From Caulifigura coniformis (lineage in GTDB: Bacteria > Planctomycetota > Planctomycetia > Planctomycetales > Planctomycetaceae), in contig NZ_CP036271.1 in NCBI RefSeq assembly GCF_007745175.1, positions 3,236,314 through 3,300,313 on the forward strand: 64,000 nucleotides of DNA. Reading direction: 5' to 3'. Positions 4,121 to 36,848 of the stretch are shown piece by piece. The notes below the pieces were generated by a model. That model ran no database searches. It was not told the DNA's origin and saw only the letters and a list, made by a program, of their open reading frames with translations. Both the position numbers and the translations under genes were made by a program. Position 1 is the first letter of the stretch. Each line of letters opens with the position of its first letter.

Positions 4121-5664
4121 GGGAGTTCCACCGGAACGATGATGACGCCGGCGGTCCCCGTGCAGACAACCTTCATGGACGGGTGAGTTGGGTCGGGATT
4201 GAGGATGTATCTCGGCAGCGTGATTGACTCAAGCGAGCACCAGGAATCCTCGGGACCTGGATTCAGTGTGCGGGACCAATTCGCCCCATAGCAGGGAAGG
4301 CCGGGATACGGCGCCTCCGCCAGCCGGTCTCCACTGGAGCAGAGAGGGAACCACGCAAGCGAAACACTAAGAGTTTCCGGTGGACCTGCGTTGGTCTTAA
4401 AGCTCAGGAGCAACCGGAGCTTGTTGACGAAGTTCCCGCCACAATAAGTTTCAGACGGGGCCACGAAGTCTTTGTAGAAGATGCCACATTCATCGTGCGG
4501 GCTTGGCACTAAGTAATCTTCGACGTCTTCGTTGTACGGCAACAGTAGATGTTCCCCGACCGCCTGGGTACAGAACTGCTCCATGCAATTGCCGACGCTT
4601 TGGTCTGTGGGGTTGCCTACGTCATTAGGGATCGTGACGCGAGGCAGCCACTTCGATCCGTTGCAGTCGCAGCCTTGGGCAGAAAGCGGGGAGAGACAGA
4701 CTTCGCATGGAGGTGCCCAGTCACGGAATTTAATCGACTGCGTCTGCGGGAAAAACTTCGCGCCGCAGTGCGGCTTCCACAAACTGACGACTCGGCGAAA
4801 GTTCACGATCTCGGCATCATCGCTGTTCCTGTGTAGCTTGATCTCAACTTCCGACGACTCGATTCCACTTGCCCGCATCTGGTAGTAGACGTCGATGCTT
4901 GTGGGGCCGGTTGCATCAGTTTCAATGGAGAACGCGGCAGAACTCCATTGATGAGCGCTGCTCACAAAACCGTCGTAGCTAAGAAGTCTTTCATCGAACG
5001 CGTATCGGCCAAAGGCCTTGTAGCCGTCTGTATCCGTATCGACTTCGACGTTCGCCCCATCCCGCGGGACGCAACCTCCACAGCCGCACGCTCCCTCGGC
5101 GCCAGCGGATGCGGCCCCGAGACTCGCTTCCGTCAGGAGCAGCAGCGCCCACTGGTCACCGGCCCCGGCTTTGTGCCACAGCACGTGGACCACGAAGTCG
5201 TCATCGCCGATGTTCTCCTCGGCGATGGCTTCGAACTTCGATGTGCTGAGGGGGCGGGCATACTTGTAGGTGCCGCCATCTGGCACACTCAGCTTTGCCT
5301 GCGACACGATGCCAGGGGCGAGACAATACCCCATGCCGCCGGCGGGAATCGTCTCCTGAGCCACGAATGCGGGAGACGAGCTGTTTGGAGCTGCCGCTTT
5401 CACAATGACGCGAGCCAGGAACTCCCGCAGGTTCTCAGCGGGGTCGATGACCGGTTCGGTCACTTTCAGGACGCCGAGGCGCGGCACGGGCGAGCCCGTC
5501 GTATTCTTGACGAGCACCAGGTGACGCTGCAGGCCCTGTTGAGCCGGGCTCGGCGGTGGGCCTCCACGTGCTGCGGACAACGCGGACTGGTTCCAGGTCG
5601 CGATCTGGCGGGCCGTCGGCTCGAAGGCCTCGCCGGAAACCGGCAGGCGATAAGGATCGCTCAT
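4117..5664 (-). CDS. Phage distal tail / virion protein of unknown function
   Basis: 515 residues between the tape-measure region and the tail fibre, overlapping both neighbours by 4 nt (ATGA junctions). The N-terminal part (about residues 1-190) is followed by a Gly/Cys segment (GACGCGGCVPRDG) and a C-terminal half containing several Cys (CGAKFFP, CEVCLSPLSAQGCDC). No catalytic motif is evident. Its place after the tape measure suggests a baseplate or distal tail protein, but this is inferred from position only. Confidence 0.6.
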   Translation of the reverse strand: MSDPYRLPVSGEAFEPTARQIATWNQSALSAARGGPPPSPAQQGLQRHLVLVKNTTGSPVPRLGVLKVTEPVIDPAENLREFLARVIVKAAAPNSSSPAFVAQETIPAGGMGYCLAPGIVSQAKLSVPDGGTYKYARPLSTSKFEAIAEENIGDDDFVVHVLWHKAGAGDQWALLLLTEASLGAASAGAEGACGCGGCVPRDGANVEVDTDTDGYKAFGRYAFDERLLSYDGFVSSAHQWSSAAFSIETDATGPTSIDVYYQMRASGIESSEVEIKLHRNSDDAEIVNFRRVVSLWKPHCGAKFFPQTQSIKFRDWAPPCEVCLSPLSAQGCDCNGSKWLPRVTIPNDVGNPTDQSVGNCMEQFCTQAVGEHLLLPYNEDVEDYLVPSPHDECGIFYKDFVAPSETYCGGNFVNKLRLLLSFKTNAGPPETLSVSLAWFPLCSSGDRLAEAPYPGLPCYGANWSRTLNPGPEDSWCSLESITLPRYILNPDPTHPSMKVVCTGTAGVIIVPVELP

Positions 5665-20781: not shown

Positions 20782-21444
20782 TCAACTCCGAGCAGACCGA
20801 GTTGACTCAATGGCGGATCGGATCCGTTCCCTGGCTGCAACGAAATAGGTTGGATCCTGCTCGATGCCGATGAAACTCCGGCCGAGTTGCACGCAAGCGA
20901 CGCCGGTGGACCCACTGCCCATGTATGGATCGAGCACCATGTCTCCTGCCGTCTTGCGGATGCACCATTCCATCAGCGACACCGGCTTTTGAGTCGGGTG
21001 GACCCGCCTATGCTGCAGGGCGTTGTGCGACAGATCCTTTTTCAAGTAGACCCCTTTGCCTTTGCTAAACCAGGCGACTTCGGCGTCAGAACAGAACGAG
21101 CCGTAGGCGGGTTCATTTCGTTTGATCCAGACGAGGCATGTGCCTCGCGGAAGACGATCCGCGAAGTGATTCCACCCCCAAATGATTTTCTGCCTCCCCA
21201 GCTTTAAGAGAAAGGAGGGATCAAATGGACGGTCGTCGCCCAAGATCGGCTTGTAGTCCCGGCTCTTCGTTCGCTTGGCTGCCCTTCGACCTCCCGTGAA
21301 TCGCGAATAGTCACACTTGTTCCGAATTCCCCATGGTGGATCCGTGACAACGGTATCGACCTTGGGCAGGGACGGGATGACCGCATGGCAATCCGCGAGG
21401 AAAAGCCGCACGCTGCCATCGTCAGATTGCCAGGTGGGGTTCAT
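20782..21444 (-). CDS. Phage DNA methyltransferase 1 (N4/N6 amino type)
   Basis: About 220 residues. It carries the catalytic DPPW motif at about residue 35 and the AdoMet-binding LDPYMGSGSTGVA motif near the C-terminus, with KPVSLMEWCI between. This order (catalytic first) is the beta-type amino-methyltransferase layout. The ATG at 21444 overlaps the Gam-like stop, and copy 7 of the 15-bp element ends only 8 nt upstream, leaving little room for a Shine-Dalgarno. A GTG at 21450 is the alternative start. No restriction endonuclease is adjacent, so self-protection of phage DNA is likely. Confidence 0.8.
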   Translation of the reverse strand: MNPTWQSDDGSVRLFLADCHAVIPSLPKVDTVVTDPPWGIRNKCDYSRFTGGRRAAKRTKSRDYKPILGDDRPFDPSFLLKLGRQKIIWGWNHFADRLPRGTCLVWIKRNEPAYGSFCSDAEVAWFSKGKGVYLKKDLSHNALQHRRVHPTQKPVSLMEWCIRKTAGDMVLDPYMGSGSTGVACVQLGRSFIGIEQDPTYFVAARERIRSAIESTRSARS

Positions 21445-22043
21445 GGGCACTTATTCCGCGCGCAATAGGCCGTCGGCAGGATGCGTACTTCGTCCTGCGG
21501 CGGCACGTACTCGAGCCCATACCGGAGCAGCTTCGCTGGCGTCATCCGTCTCGCGATGACCGCGGCCTTGAGGGCAGCGACATCGAGCTCGGCATTCAGG
21601 CGAATCCAGCCAGCGAGGCCGAGCCGCCGGAGGATCGCTACAGCTCTGTCAGCAGTCCAACCGAGCGCCTTGATCACCGTCGTCGGCGTGTGCTTCTTGT
21701 CGACGACGACACGAGGCTGGGACAGGTGGAAGCCGACCGTCCCGTGAGTGAATTTCAGGGACTTGCTCTCCGGCGTCACGAACTGGCTCTTGTGGCTGAC
21801 CGCGTAGTCGGCGATCGCCGCCTCCAGAAGGAGCTTGCGATCGGTAAAGCCGACGCCGTTGATCCGCAGGCACTTTGCGGCCTCTTCAGTCGCCGCAGAG
21901 ATCGTCTGCTCCAGCACGCCATGCACCTCGCTGCGGCGGGCGTCCAGCCAGGCCAATTCGCGGAGGGCCAGTTCGACGTCAGCGAAGCCGCGGCACTTCG
22001 GCTTTGCCGCGAGGCGTTTCGCGGGTGGGCGGGGAAGACTCAT
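21441..22043 (-). CDS. Mu Gam-like host-nuclease inhibitor
   Basis: 200 residues. The helical first half, followed by KSLKFTHGTVGFHLSQPRVVV, corresponds to the core of Mu Gam proteins, which bind dsDNA ends and shield them from exonuclease. The last ten residues (TAYCARNKCP) are encoded by copy 7 of the 15-bp element, so the element is translated here as the protein's C-terminus. It precedes the methyltransferase with an ATGA-like overlap. Confidence 0.65.
   Translation of the reverse strand: MSLPRPPAKRLAAKPKCRGFADVELALRELAWLDARRSEVHGVLEQTISAATEEAAKCLRINGVGFTDRKLLLEAAIADYAVSHKSQFVTPESKSLKFTHGTVGFHLSQPRVVVDKKHTPTTVIKALGWTADRAVAILRRLGLAGWIRLNAELDVAALKAAVIARRMTPAKLLRYGLEYVPPQDEVRILPTAYCARNKCP
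21453..21467 (-). promoter_or_regulatory. 15-bp prophage element, copy 7
   Basis: ATTCCGCGCGCAATA, inside the last codons of the Gam-like gene and 8 nt upstream of the methyltransferase ATG. Confidence 0.55.
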
Positions 22044-26984: not shown

Positions 26985-27093
26985 AAAGGCGGGCGGCGCA
27001 GAACGGTTGGTACGTCCCACGCCGCCCTATCACCACGCTTGCGACCACTCCGCGGTCACAAACGCAGCGCATGCTGCGCAGAGAGGAAGTCCC

Positions 27094-27930
27094 ATGCAGG
27101 GATGCGAGAAGCGAAATCGGTCAGCCGGCGAGGAAAGTTGGCTGATCTCCGGAGAGACCCCGTTCTATGCCCGGAACGGAGTCGCGTTGTATCGGGGGAA
27201 CGCGTTGCGCCTGTTGCCCAAGCTGCAGCCTGGGTCGGTTGACCTGTTTGCAGTCGACCCTCCCTATTGCAGCGGTGGGAGGACTGCGGGAGAACGATCT
27301 GCGGATCCGGCCAAGAAATACGCGCAGGATGGTGATGCCCGCGGCCGGCCGTCGTTCACCGGCGACCACCTTGACCAGCGGTCGTTCGTCACCTGGTCGA
27401 CCTGGTGGCTGGAGGAATGCCTCGCGGCCGCGAAGGACGGCGCCTATCTGGCGGTGTTCATCGACTGGCGGAATTTGCCGGCGATGACCGACGCCGTCCA
27501 GATCGCAGGCTGGCAATGGCGCGGCATCATGGGCTGGGACAAGGGCCTCGGCTCGCGGGCACCGCACAAGGGGTACGTGCGGCACCAGCTCGAGTACATC
27601 GTCTGGGGCACGAAAGGCGCCGTGCAAAAGCGCACGGACGCCGGACCGTTTGCCGGCTGCCTGCGCTATTCAGTCCGGAAAAGCGACAAGCATCACCTGA
27701 CCGGAAAGCCCACCGACCTGATGCGGTCGCTTGTCCATCTGGCTCCCGTCGGAGGACTTGTGTGCGATCCATTTGCCGGCTCCTTCACGACCGCAGCAGC
27801 AGCCCGGATCGAGGGCAGGCGATGCGTCGCGTCGGACGTCTCGGCTGAGTACTGCGAGATCGGCAAGACCCGTCTCGAAACGATTGAAAGGCTGCGGGTT
27901 GGTGAGACCTCGCAGGGAATTCAGGCGTAA
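27094..27930 (+). CDS. Phage DNA methyltransferase 2 (N4/N6 amino type)
   Basis: 278 residues from the ATG at 27094, preceded by GAGAGGAAG. It has a DPPYCSGG catalytic motif near residue 57, GKPTDLMRSLVHLA, and a CDPFAGSFTTAAAA AdoMet loop near the C-terminus. It is the last gene before the tRNA-derived attachment site; its stop overlaps the end of the integrase reading frame on the other strand. Together with methyltransferase 1 it probably modifies phage DNA against host restriction. Confidence 0.8.
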   Translation: MQGCEKRNRSAGEESWLISGETPFYARNGVALYRGNALRLLPKLQPGSVDLFAVDPPYCSGGRTAGERSADPAKKYAQDGDARGRPSFTGDHLDQRSFVTWSTWWLEECLAAAKDGAYLAVFIDWRNLPAMTDAVQIAGWQWRGIMGWDKGLGSRAPHKGYVRHQLEYIVWGTKGAVQKRTDAGPFAGCLRYSVRKSDKHHLTGKPTDLMRSLVHLAPVGGLVCDPFAGSFTTAAAARIEGRRCVASDVSAEYCEIGKTRLETIERLRVGETSQGIQA

Positions 27931-34493: not shown

Positions 34494-34721
34494 TTAACTC
34501 AACCCGGGACTTTGCCGGCGAGTTCTTCTCAGCAGGTCCAAGATCGCCCGCCCAGCCGCGGTGGGCACTACAGCGTCGCCCGAGCAAGTCGGGCAGAATG
34601 AGTCCCCATAGACGATTTGCGACTGGCCAAGGGATGGGAAACTGGACGGCGGCGCGAACTGCGTCTTCGGGCGGGTGCACTCACATGGTTGGATGAGGTC
34701 CTCCAGCTTCAAATCGATCAT
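34494..34721 (-). CDS. Small Cys-containing protein
   Basis: 75 residues from the ATG at 34721 with GGGAAAG upstream. It has two Cys pairs (CEC near 14, CPTC near 44) and a C-terminal helix (AAGRAILDLLRRTRRQ). The four Cys could bind one zinc ion. Family not recognised. It precedes the regulatory operon and could be a regulator. Confidence 0.5.
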   Translation of the reverse strand: MIDLKLEDLIQPCECTRPKTQFAPPSSFPSLGQSQIVYGDSFCPTCSGDAVVPTAAGRAILDLLRRTRRQSPGLS

Positions 34722-34938
34722 CACTTTCCCTCAATAACTTGCCCTGATGGAAATGCCCACAAGACATTTTACGGAAGGGTGTCGGGCAACCAACCGCGTG
34801 ATGGCGGGAATCAGAGGATAAGCCCGAGGGGAGCAGCCGTTTTGCCCGTTCGCGTCGGTGGTGGAATCGAACTTTGCCAAAGAACACTTGTATACCATCG
34901 CCAAAAATGGAAACTGGTGCGATGAAAGGTGCAGGCCA

Positions 34939-35511
34939 ATGCCGGACGCGATGCAGGAGTATCGTCAGCATCTTGTCCTCGCACGGGAGAAGTCCCACGA
35001 GTCATACGACAAGCTGGTGACGACGCTTTCCGCAGGAGGGCTAGGTGTAACCTTCACATTCCTCGGCCAATTACCAGTTAATCAGGTTAAGTCCATCGGG
35101 TGGCTTTTTGGCGCTTGGGTCAGTTGGTCATTGAGTATCGCCTGCGTTTTGGCTTCATTTTTCTGCAGTGCCAAAGCGCTGAATCGAGCGATCGAGCAAG
35201 TCGACGCAGGCAAAACTGGCACTCAGCCGATCGGTGGCAAGCTCGCCAAATTCACTGAGTGGTTAAATGTCGCGGGTGGAGCAACGTTCGTCTTGGGAGC
35301 GTTCCTGACAGCCCTGTTCATCTACTTCAACCTTGGAGGGATTCACGTGGGAGAGAATCGGCAACTACCGAAGGGAGACGTTAGTGAGCGAGGATATACG
35401 CCACCTCCTGCACCAAAGACTCCCGCTCATATGCAGGCTGGTTATGTGCCACCACCAGCGCCCCCAGTCGCGGTCTCACGACCACAGGGCCCCACGGGTG
35501 AAAAGAAATGA
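34939..35511 (+). CDS. Membrane protein of a low-GC accessory cassette
   Basis: 190 residues from the ATG at 34939. A helical N-terminus (YRQHLVLAREKSHESYDKL) is followed by two membrane segments before residue 80, another near 125-145, and a Pro-rich C-terminal tail (PPPAPKTP, PPPAPPVAV). It is on the opposite strand to the rest of the element, and two 60-nt stretches counted by hand (35041-35160) are about 48% GC, far below the neighbours. This is the profile of a moron or defence-type cargo gene. The activity is unknown. Confidence 0.65.
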   Translation: MPDAMQEYRQHLVLAREKSHESYDKLVTTLSAGGLGVTFTFLGQLPVNQVKSIGWLFGAWVSWSLSIACVLASFFCSAKALNRAIEQVDAGKTGTQPIGGKLAKFTEWLNVAGGATFVLGAFLTALFIYFNLGGIHVGENRQLPKGDVSERGYTPPPAPKTPAHMQAGYVPPPAPPVAVSRPQGPTGEKK

Positions 35512-35636
35512 CAGTGGCAGCACAGCAAGCAGAACCCAGGGATTCGCCGCAGCCAATGCCGGGCACTGGTTATCCCCCGCCTCCGCCTCCACGGCAAGAT
35601 CCTCCGCAATCGCCCAAGAAGCGGAGCATCCAATGA
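35508..35636 (+). CDS. Proline-rich 42-residue peptide, coupled to the membrane protein
   Basis: ATGA overlap with the preceding stop. The product contains TGYPPPPPPRQDPP and a basic end (PKKRSIQ). The Pro-rich run resembles the C-terminal tail of the preceding membrane protein, so this may be a duplicated tail or a genuine small partner. A further 31-residue frame starts in its stop (ATGA at 35633) but is too short to support. Confidence 0.35.
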   Translation: MTVAAQQAEPRDSPQPMPGTGYPPPPPPRQDPPQSPKKRSIQ

Positions 35637-35675
35637 TTGCGGTTCTAAGAATCACCCTTTCAACTGGGATGAGCA

Positions 35676-35900
35676 ATGGACAGGTACGGGAATCGCGGGG
35701 GCGACTCTGGCGTTGTCGCATATGAGTTGGGCGATGGTGCGATCGCCGTAAGATTCGCGGACGGTGGCGTGTACCTTTACACTGTCGCGTCGGCCGGTGC
35801 GTCCAATATCAGGAAGATGCATCAACTCGCAGTGGCCGGGTACGGGCTGAACACATTCATTTCGCAAAACGTCAAGGATCGGTACGCGAAGAAGCTGTAA
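35676..35900 (+). CDS. KTSC-like small protein
   Basis: 74 residues. The sequence VVAYELGDGAIAVRFADGGVYLYT, then MHQLAVAGYGLNTFI and VKDRYAKKL matches the beta-strand/helix plan of KTSC-type domains (a small domain often found in phage and mobile elements). It is the last gene of the plus-strand cassette. Role unknown. Confidence 0.6.
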   Translation: MDRYGNRGGDSGVVAYELGDGAIAVRFADGGVYLYTVASAGASNIRKMHQLAVAGYGLNTFISQNVKDRYAKKL

Positions 35901-36072
35901 GGAGACGTTGGAGACATCCCTCAACGCAGCCTTCTGGTAGGCGGCGATTGCGTGCCAGCCACTCACAGGCGTCGACAACGGCGCTGTAGCGAACTGGGTC
36001 GAGACTTGGCTGACAGATTGCCAGGAAGCGAAGAATTGTCAGCTCATCATCCGCGAGATCTGCGGTCTTCAT
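35872..36072 (-). CDS. Small helical element protein
   Basis: 66 residues (DDELTILRFLAICQPSLDP, then AVVDACEWLARNRRLP). It is 27 nt downstream of the clamp-loader-like gene and overlaps the end of the convergent KTSC-like gene by 29 nt. Not recognised; kept for its helix-rich composition and operon position. Confidence 0.45.
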   Translation of the reverse strand: MKTADLADDELTILRFLAICQPSLDPVRYSAVVDACEWLARNRRLPEGCVEGCLQRLLTASSRTDP

Positions 36073-36098: not shown

Positions 36099-36746
36099 TC
36101 AGGCCGCCATCCCCTGAATGGCTTCCTCTACGCGCCGCACCGCCCTCCGGAACGACGGCGCCGAGCCGTGCGGGCACAGTTCATCGGCGGACAGCGGGCA
36201 CTTCGACGTTCCCACCTCGGCGCGCCAGATATCGTTGGCGAGCGTCCGGATCGGCGTGAGCAGCGACGGCCGGGTGTCCTGAAACCGGTAGTGGGCGCAC
36301 CGATCCTGAAATCGGGCCTCAAAGCTGTCCGGGTTGTTCGTGGTGAAGACGACCACGGAATGCGACGGCAGCCGCTCCAGGGCGTCCAACCACACTTCGC
36401 GGGCCTTGGGGTGCATCGACTCCGCCTCGTTCAGAATGAGGACGCTGGCCCGGCCGACAATGGGCCGATACGCGAACCGGCTGACCAGCTCGCGGACGCT
36501 CTCGGCATCCTGGCAACCGGAACTCAGTTCGGTCGTGCCGATGCGGACGTTCCGTTCATCCAGCCCGGGATTGAGTTCCCGCGCGAGCGCCCAAGCCGCG
36601 GCCGTCTTGCCCACCCCGCTCCCACCGGAGAACAGGAACGCGCGCCCGTGCGGTCTGGAGACGAATCCCTTGAGTTTGGAAACAACGTCCGGCTGGCCCC
36701 TGAGATCCGAGAGCAATCGAGGCGCGTACTTCCGGCACAGATCCAT
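36099..36746 (-). CDS. Clamp-loader-like AAA ATPase
   Basis: 215 residues from the ATG at 36746. RKYAPRLLSDLRGQPDVVSKL is the RFC/DnaX N-terminal signature. A Walker A (GGSGVGKTAAAW) and a Walker B-like LILNEAESM follow, with NE where DE is usual. ARFQDRCAHYRF corresponds to the SRC arginine-finger region. There is no collar domain, so it is shorter than a full DnaX. It probably serves element replication or loads another ring. Confidence 0.75.
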   Translation of the reverse strand: MDLCRKYAPRLLSDLRGQPDVVSKLKGFVSRPHGRAFLFSGGSGVGKTAAAWALARELNPGLDERNVRIGTTELSSGCQDAESVRELVSRFAYRPIVGRASVLILNEAESMHPKAREVWLDALERLPSHSVVVFTTNNPDSFEARFQDRCAHYRFQDTRPSLLTPIRTLANDIWRAEVGTSKCPLSADELCPHGSAPSFRRAVRRVEEAIQGMAA

Positions 36747-36848
36747 AGTGCTCCCTGAGGTGTGGACAGCGTGTCGAGTCCCATCGACTCCCGAACGAAC
36801 AACGCCACGCTGAACTTCAGGCGTGGCGTTATCGGCCAACGGTGCAGA

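Follow-up and report, generated by a model that had tools for sequence, protein, structure and literature searches.

The window, by which is meant the whole 64-kb stretch of DNA analyzed, contains a prophage, and the cassette described here is surrounded by phage genes: terminase, portal, capsid/protease, tape measure, integrase, a DUF3987 helicase, and a phage-type clamp loader. A sequence-only reading had pointed to three plus-strand ORFs flanked by minus-strand ORFs at this place, and its coordinates are right. The features referred to below are:

34494-34724, minus strand: flanking ORF
34858-35511, plus strand: membrane-protein ORF as listed, 217 aa, opening at GTG 34858
34939-35511, plus strand: three-helix membrane protein from its likely start, ATG 34939, 190 aa (from the ORF list, the AF2 model, and the family alignment)
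35335-35339, plus strand: GGAGG, a possible ribosome-binding site for an internal peptide start, 7 nt before GTG 35347
35347-35511, plus strand: peptide 1, 54 aa, in frame with the membrane-protein ORF, whose tail it forms; contains GYTPPPAP and GYVPPPAP
35508-35636, plus strand: peptide 2, 42 aa (31% Pro), containing GYPPPPPP and overlapping the membrane gene by ATGA
35676-35900, plus strand: KTSC-like small protein, 74 aa (Pfam KTSC, 12.5 bits; PHROG matches)
35872-36072, then 36099-36839, minus strand: flanking ORFs

The flanking gene at 34494-34724 is divergent from the cassette and encodes a small Cys-containing protein resembling anti-TRAP (Pfam 31.1 bits, cut-off 32); that at 36099-36839 encodes a phage clamp-loader-like ATPase (phrog_5846, 7.4e-23). 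Elsewhere in the prophage are two DNA methyltransferase-like genes, one at 20782-21450 (PHROGs) and one, recognized by eye, at 27007-27930 beside the integrase.

In place and in composition the cassette resembles a moron: it lies inside the prophage as a separate unit that runs counter to the flanking genes, and positions 34858-35900 have 55.6% GC against a mean of 63.3% for the whole window, within the lowest 0.11% of windows of the same size. The lowest-GC 654-nt stretch of the entire window (53.1%) also falls in this region. The contrast drawn earlier between about 48% GC at 35041-35160 and about 75% at 36121 is correct in both values, but only the first is unusual: just 0.02% of 120-nt windows are as low as the 47.5% found there, while the 75.0% at 36121-36180 is at the 98.6th percentile of 60-nt windows. 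No promoter was found for the cassette, with 0.5 expected.

The membrane gene probably starts at ATG 34939, with AAAGG upstream, rather than at GTG 34858, because its nearest relative (L005, 36% identical across the whole product) aligns from its methionine at that position. The predicted protein carries the family motif YDK..TLSAGGLGV..F. Its Pro-rich tail, already noticed in the sequence-only reading, is present as an ORF but also has an internal start of its own, GTG 35347 behind GGAGG, and is probably made as a free 54-aa peptide too. With this in-frame start and the 42-aa ORF, the window therefore probably encodes two peptides, which have three copies of a GYxPPPxP-like motif in total. 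The ribosome site of the 42-aa ORF itself is weak (GAAAAG), and translation of this ORF would depend on coupling to the membrane gene. The three ORFs that had been taken as one gene set all exist, but are better described as a membrane protein and two peptides, with the KTSC-like gene apart, because the latter is without a relative in the stretches around the other 18 members of the membrane-protein family.

Searches of Pfam, PHROGs, and PADLOC returned nothing for the membrane protein, NCBIfam gave a single match, weak and partial (E 0.059), and no solved structure resembled it in sequence; judged by its sequence, it is a member of a rare, unnamed family. The family was found in 1 of 59 near genomes, 6 of 397 class genomes (single-sequence search), 6 of 392 phylum genomes (profile search; three of them weak), and 8 of 345 genomes from the phylum of G756, a Thermodesulfovibrionia member (two already known, three weak); each of these counts includes the query's own genome. 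A genome collection yielded nine loci, including three that are duplicates or another assembly of a known system, and plasmids two. Counting each system once, there are 19 members. Going by record titles, they come from Planctomycetota, Nitrospirota, plasmids of a Bacteroidota and of an Alphaproteobacterial host, a 3-kb contig labelled Methanosarcinales (which may be mis-binned), and others. Under single counting, L027 is a duplicate of L009 and L029 of L006, and L033 represents the L006 system in another assembly; L045, the second and broken copy in G759, was not counted, and L021 is a real member, among the 19 but outside the 18-locus peptide test described below. Six weak profile matches (L022, L023, L024, L049, L050, and L051; E 8.7e-4 to 1.6e-8) were left out of the counts, and none of them has a Pro-rich downstream ORF by the strict form of that test. 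L022 comes after an apparent type I specificity subunit (by eye).

The view of the membrane gene as cargo rather than core is favored by its occurrence in only its own genome among the 59 near ones and by relatives in unrelated contexts; comparison of the slot itself turned up no close relative of the element. For the 542-aa neighbor, a search of 297 class genomes gave, besides its own, two weak matches (E 5.5e-4 and 9.8e-4). For the clamp-loader neighbor there was one match at E <= 1e-25 besides its own (in G132, ~40% identity); the 19.9 kb examined in G132 has no other protein in common with the window (blastp, E 1e-3), and no cassette beside the clamp loader. The G132 clamp loader likewise lies among phage-like genes (by eye).

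An alignment of 15 cores has one invariant F and one invariant W; nearly invariant are an R, a DK pair 15 residues further on, and a single L, S, N, G, and N. The first membrane segment most often reads TLSxGALGLS. The AF2 model of the window protein (mean pLDDT 72) has helices at 30-71, 80-116, and 126-159, in the numbering from 34858. By charge counts, the N-terminus and loop 2 would be inside, and the C-terminus with its fused tail hence outside. Foldseek returned no match to this helical bundle at E <= 0.001. VIA-align gave Z scores up to 10.2, to varied helical bundles such as apolipoprotein E, a range that the tool itself rates as common for helical models and that excludes no family.

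Most family loci have one to three tiny Pro-rich ORFs downstream of the membrane gene, overlapping its end, or fused to it. A strict test was applied for an ORF of 30-95 aa, with a ribosome-type site and at least 15% Pro, ending at or after the end of the gene. Of 18 family loci 13 passed, whereas among 180 control genes, which were other genes of the same loci, 2 did; the remaining 5 loci failed, as did the nineteenth member, L021, where a Pro-rich ORF overlaps the gene end. On a looser count made by eye, all members but L030 (18 of 19) have a Pro-rich or motif-bearing ORF or tail. The ribosome-type sites of the peptides look strong at L028, L031, L032, L052, L053, L017, and L026; both L018 peptides are without one. 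In five members (the window, L005, L009, L025, and L054) a Pro-containing tail is fused in frame. In each of them the last 75 codons include an in-frame start preceded by a 4-base ribosome-type site, compared with 25 of 161 control genes; with a 5-base site the figures are 3 of 5 and 8 of 161. In L006 and L026, which have longer C-termini, there is no internal in-frame start behind a ribosome-type site.

The peptides are mostly basic, many with motifs of the type G-[YF]-V-P-P. When the strict motif G[YF]VPP was derived from five peptides and sought in the 18 others, 3 had it (shuffled sequences averaged 0.00). A relaxed form chosen after the peptides had been viewed, G[YFHLIV][VIT][PS], occurs 13 times in 9 of the 18 (0.55 in shuffles). 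None of 5000 shuffles reached the count for either. Ribosome stalling on polyproline was considered as a function and set aside, several peptides (for example at L031 and L008) being without PPP runs.

The family genes are also set off from their surroundings in composition. GC was below that of the locus in 18 of the 18 first measured, by a mean of 8.9 points, and L021 (48% vs. 61%) makes this 19 of 19. Control genes predicted to encode membrane proteins, selected by a crude rule from seven loci only, were lower than their locus in 4 of 15 cases and on average 1.8 points higher; because these controls are not lower than their loci, the low GC of the family is probably not simply a cost of encoding a membrane protein. 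Relatives sit in other, unrelated contexts across several phyla.

At 10 of the 18 non-window loci, a gene matched by PADLOC is adjacent to or near the family gene, in neighbors that were picked after the contexts had been viewed, unblinded. These are:

L018, L020/L034, L028, L031, L032, and L053 (6 loci): type IIG restriction enzymes
L033: Gabija (GajA 9.9e-250, GajB 1.2e-214)
L026, downstream: PDC-M68A/B (ABC-3C CTD10 and DUF2326, an ABC-3C-type pair)
L009/L016, 445 nt downstream: PD-Lambda-2_C
L054, one gene upstream: PDC-M48B

The gap from the type IIG enzyme to the membrane gene is 5, 5, 6, 12, or 49 nt at five of the six loci (L018, L028, L031, L032, and L053) and 330 nt at the sixth; at L033, where GajB is identical to that of L006/L013, the membrane gene is 212 nt behind it. 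No defence gene was recognized at L005, L007, L008, L017, L021, L025, L030, or L052, among neighbors most of which were read by eye only; L030 is a 3-kb contig, and L052 begins 45 nt before the membrane gene. For comparison, an unrelated small membrane family had 1 of 10 neighbors matched by PADLOC (PDC-M40A), these neighbors being chosen by rule and 10 of the 11 so listed being scanned. The contrast between family and control is large, but was not blinded. In the window itself, no type IIG or Gabija enzyme was recognized beside the cassette, with neither GajA nor GajB among the scanned neighbors, and it is from distant relatives that the earlier suggestion of anti-phage cargo draws its support.

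Several details of these loci may be recorded. The type IIG methylase frame at L028 (6-2258) runs on into a Fic/DOC domain (PF02661, 1.4e-12; PADLOC PDC-S04 and SoFic). L033 repeats, from ~6198, the Gabija-plus-cassette system of L006, but there what reads by eye as an IS66-like insertion truncates the membrane gene; GajA is complete in L033, and the cassette in L013. L017, on an Acuticoccus plasmid with VirB/VirD4 genes, has just upstream of the membrane gene (4708-4899) a 63-aa peptide, which we take to resemble YjzC.

Prophage morons and superinfection-exclusion membrane proteins are the class with which the window copy is most readily compared. Like these, it is a small membrane protein of foreign composition encoded opposite to the flanking phage genes; unlike them, it has no Pfam, PHROG, or PADLOC match, it is accompanied by Pro-rich peptides, and its relatives are found outside phage records, often linked to defence systems. 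The prophage copy looks exceptional, and a phage role unusual for the family, because searches of IMG/VR contigs and of phage records, which reach fairly close relatives only, did not find the family. Accessory genes of type IIG and Gabija operons offer a second comparison, in view of the short distances behind the enzyme at the five type IIG loci and behind GajB at L033; the window copy differs in having no such enzyme recognized beside it. No PADLOC-DB model corresponds to any of the three cassette proteins, and in version 2.0.0 none matches any of eight family members at E up to 1. As for SLATT/CBASS-type effectors, no SLATT family is among the Pfam matches of eight members, and there was no fold match above background. 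The octameric membrane protein family 8xMP (Pfam PF24838) is similar in size and was rejected: L009 scored 20.1 bits against a cut-off of 30, the other seven members were unmatched, and profile-profile comparison by hhalign gave a probability of 1.9%, with an 8xMP set that is imperfect (L063 is from a misread frame). In the titles and abstract openings covered, no description of the membrane-protein-plus-peptide pairing was found.

The reading we favor, with a probability of roughly one half, is that the prophage carries, as a moron, a portable membrane module associated with defence. By sequence, it consists of a membrane protein of the unnamed family, with three predicted helices, followed by small Pro-rich peptides that often have ribosome-type sites of their own; in the window, one peptide can be read in the frame of the membrane protein, as a fusion and probably also free, and the second is coupled through ATGA. 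Relatives of the pair are often beside DNA-targeting defence systems. The module might act at the inner membrane against incoming phage, with the peptides as multivalent ligands docking on the membrane protein, or else bridging it to a cytosolic partner such as the neighboring nuclease; either would gate or place the membrane protein. The prophage copy would act alone, as an exclusion or abortive factor protecting the lysogen. A single docking site is not a simple fit, as the charge rule puts the fused tail outside and free peptides would be cytosolic; this mismatch could hint at gating from one side of the membrane to the other, or could mean that the topology call is mistaken. A more ambitious version, offered tentatively and as well short of probable, is that this is an undescribed accessory module common to unrelated DNA-cutting immune systems, in which the nuclease is tethered or licensed, at the membrane where phage DNA comes in, by an inner-membrane protein together with multivalent G[YF]VPP peptides; the prophage would have taken it as a stand-alone exclusion cassette, with one peptide both fused and free from a single frame.

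The combination of a small membrane protein with tightly coupled small peptides, several at some loci, also suggests something like a toxin-antitoxin system: the membrane protein would be a growth-arresting pore or depolarizer neutralized by the Pro-rich peptides, and phage takeover would halt the supply of peptide and arrest the cell. The low GC of the genes, the copies without a recognized defence neighbor, and the toxin-antitoxin genes nearby (VapC, annotated at L017; HicB-like genes at L030 and L053, by eye) would all agree with this. However, the peptide genes follow that of the supposed toxin, and five members fuse the two in frame; no toxin-antitoxin family stands out among the weak Pfam matches of eight members, and the type IIG and Gabija neighbors already possess effectors of their own; on balance we think this unlikely, though it is the strongest of the rivals. 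Less likely again is that the cassette merely hitch-hikes in defence islands and mobile elements while serving some other purpose, for example in envelope stress or peptide export. Defence islands gather many unrelated genes, and 8 of the 18 non-window loci are without a recognized defence neighbor; but the 5-49 nt between enzyme and membrane gene at 5 of 6 type IIG loci is what would be expected of one operon, and the pairing recurs with different enzymes and in different hosts. Least probable of all is a housekeeping or lysogeny gene of this phage lineage, low in GC merely from encoding a membrane protein: the cassette does lie inside the element, and its presence in only its own genome among 59 near ones could point to phage-specific use, but relatives are in other contexts in several phyla, the 15 control membrane genes, drawn from few loci, show no such lowering of GC, and searches of phage records, within their reach, did not find the family.

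If the insert is instead a defence-associated module, as we favor, different nuclease-based defences would have a common add-on part working at the membrane, and one that the current defence library misses, there being no PADLOC model for the membrane protein. The peptides are small enough to escape annotation: a 45-aa peptide at L018 is absent from the PLSDB gene table, which is itself incomplete. The window cassette is more interesting than a lone cargo gene, as one copy of a defence-linked membrane-plus-peptide cassette of putative function, and provides a compact, testable unit and a motif with which to search for partners.

The KTSC-like gene is best taken as a second passenger of this insert, because tblastn finds no KTSC relative in the stretches of the other 18 family members; its product probably binds nucleic acid. 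Its earlier assignment is weak in Pfam terms (PF13619, 12.5 bits against a gathering cut-off of 25), but the protein has clear relatives elsewhere. It also matches two PHROGs (phrog_17428, 3.4e-20; phrog_24656, 1.1e-11). Pfam describes KTSC as having a central YxY motif, and Y33 and Y35 are invariant in all seven aligned sequences; in size and in these conserved tyrosines the window protein is like KTSC domain proteins, while its score is below the cut-off. Modeled alone, the window protein gave a poor prediction (pLDDT 55). A KTSC protein is described (PMC9503650) as DNA-binding and coupled to HerA and an endoDNase.

The relatives of the KTSC-like protein include free plasmid proteins and part of a jumbo-phage virion protein (201phi2-1 gp455, 40% identity). 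Surroundings were read on four of nine plasmid records, three of which have defence-like genes nearby, namely AbiEii with SbcD, an OLD-type nuclease accompanied by an N6-methylase, and an ATPase like SbcC/MukB. Small plasmid genes of the KTSC-like kind are found at ~4001-4230 in L076, L078, and L079, beside nuclease, Abi, or SbcC/SbcD-type genes; KTSC could be a marker of defence loci not yet catalogued.
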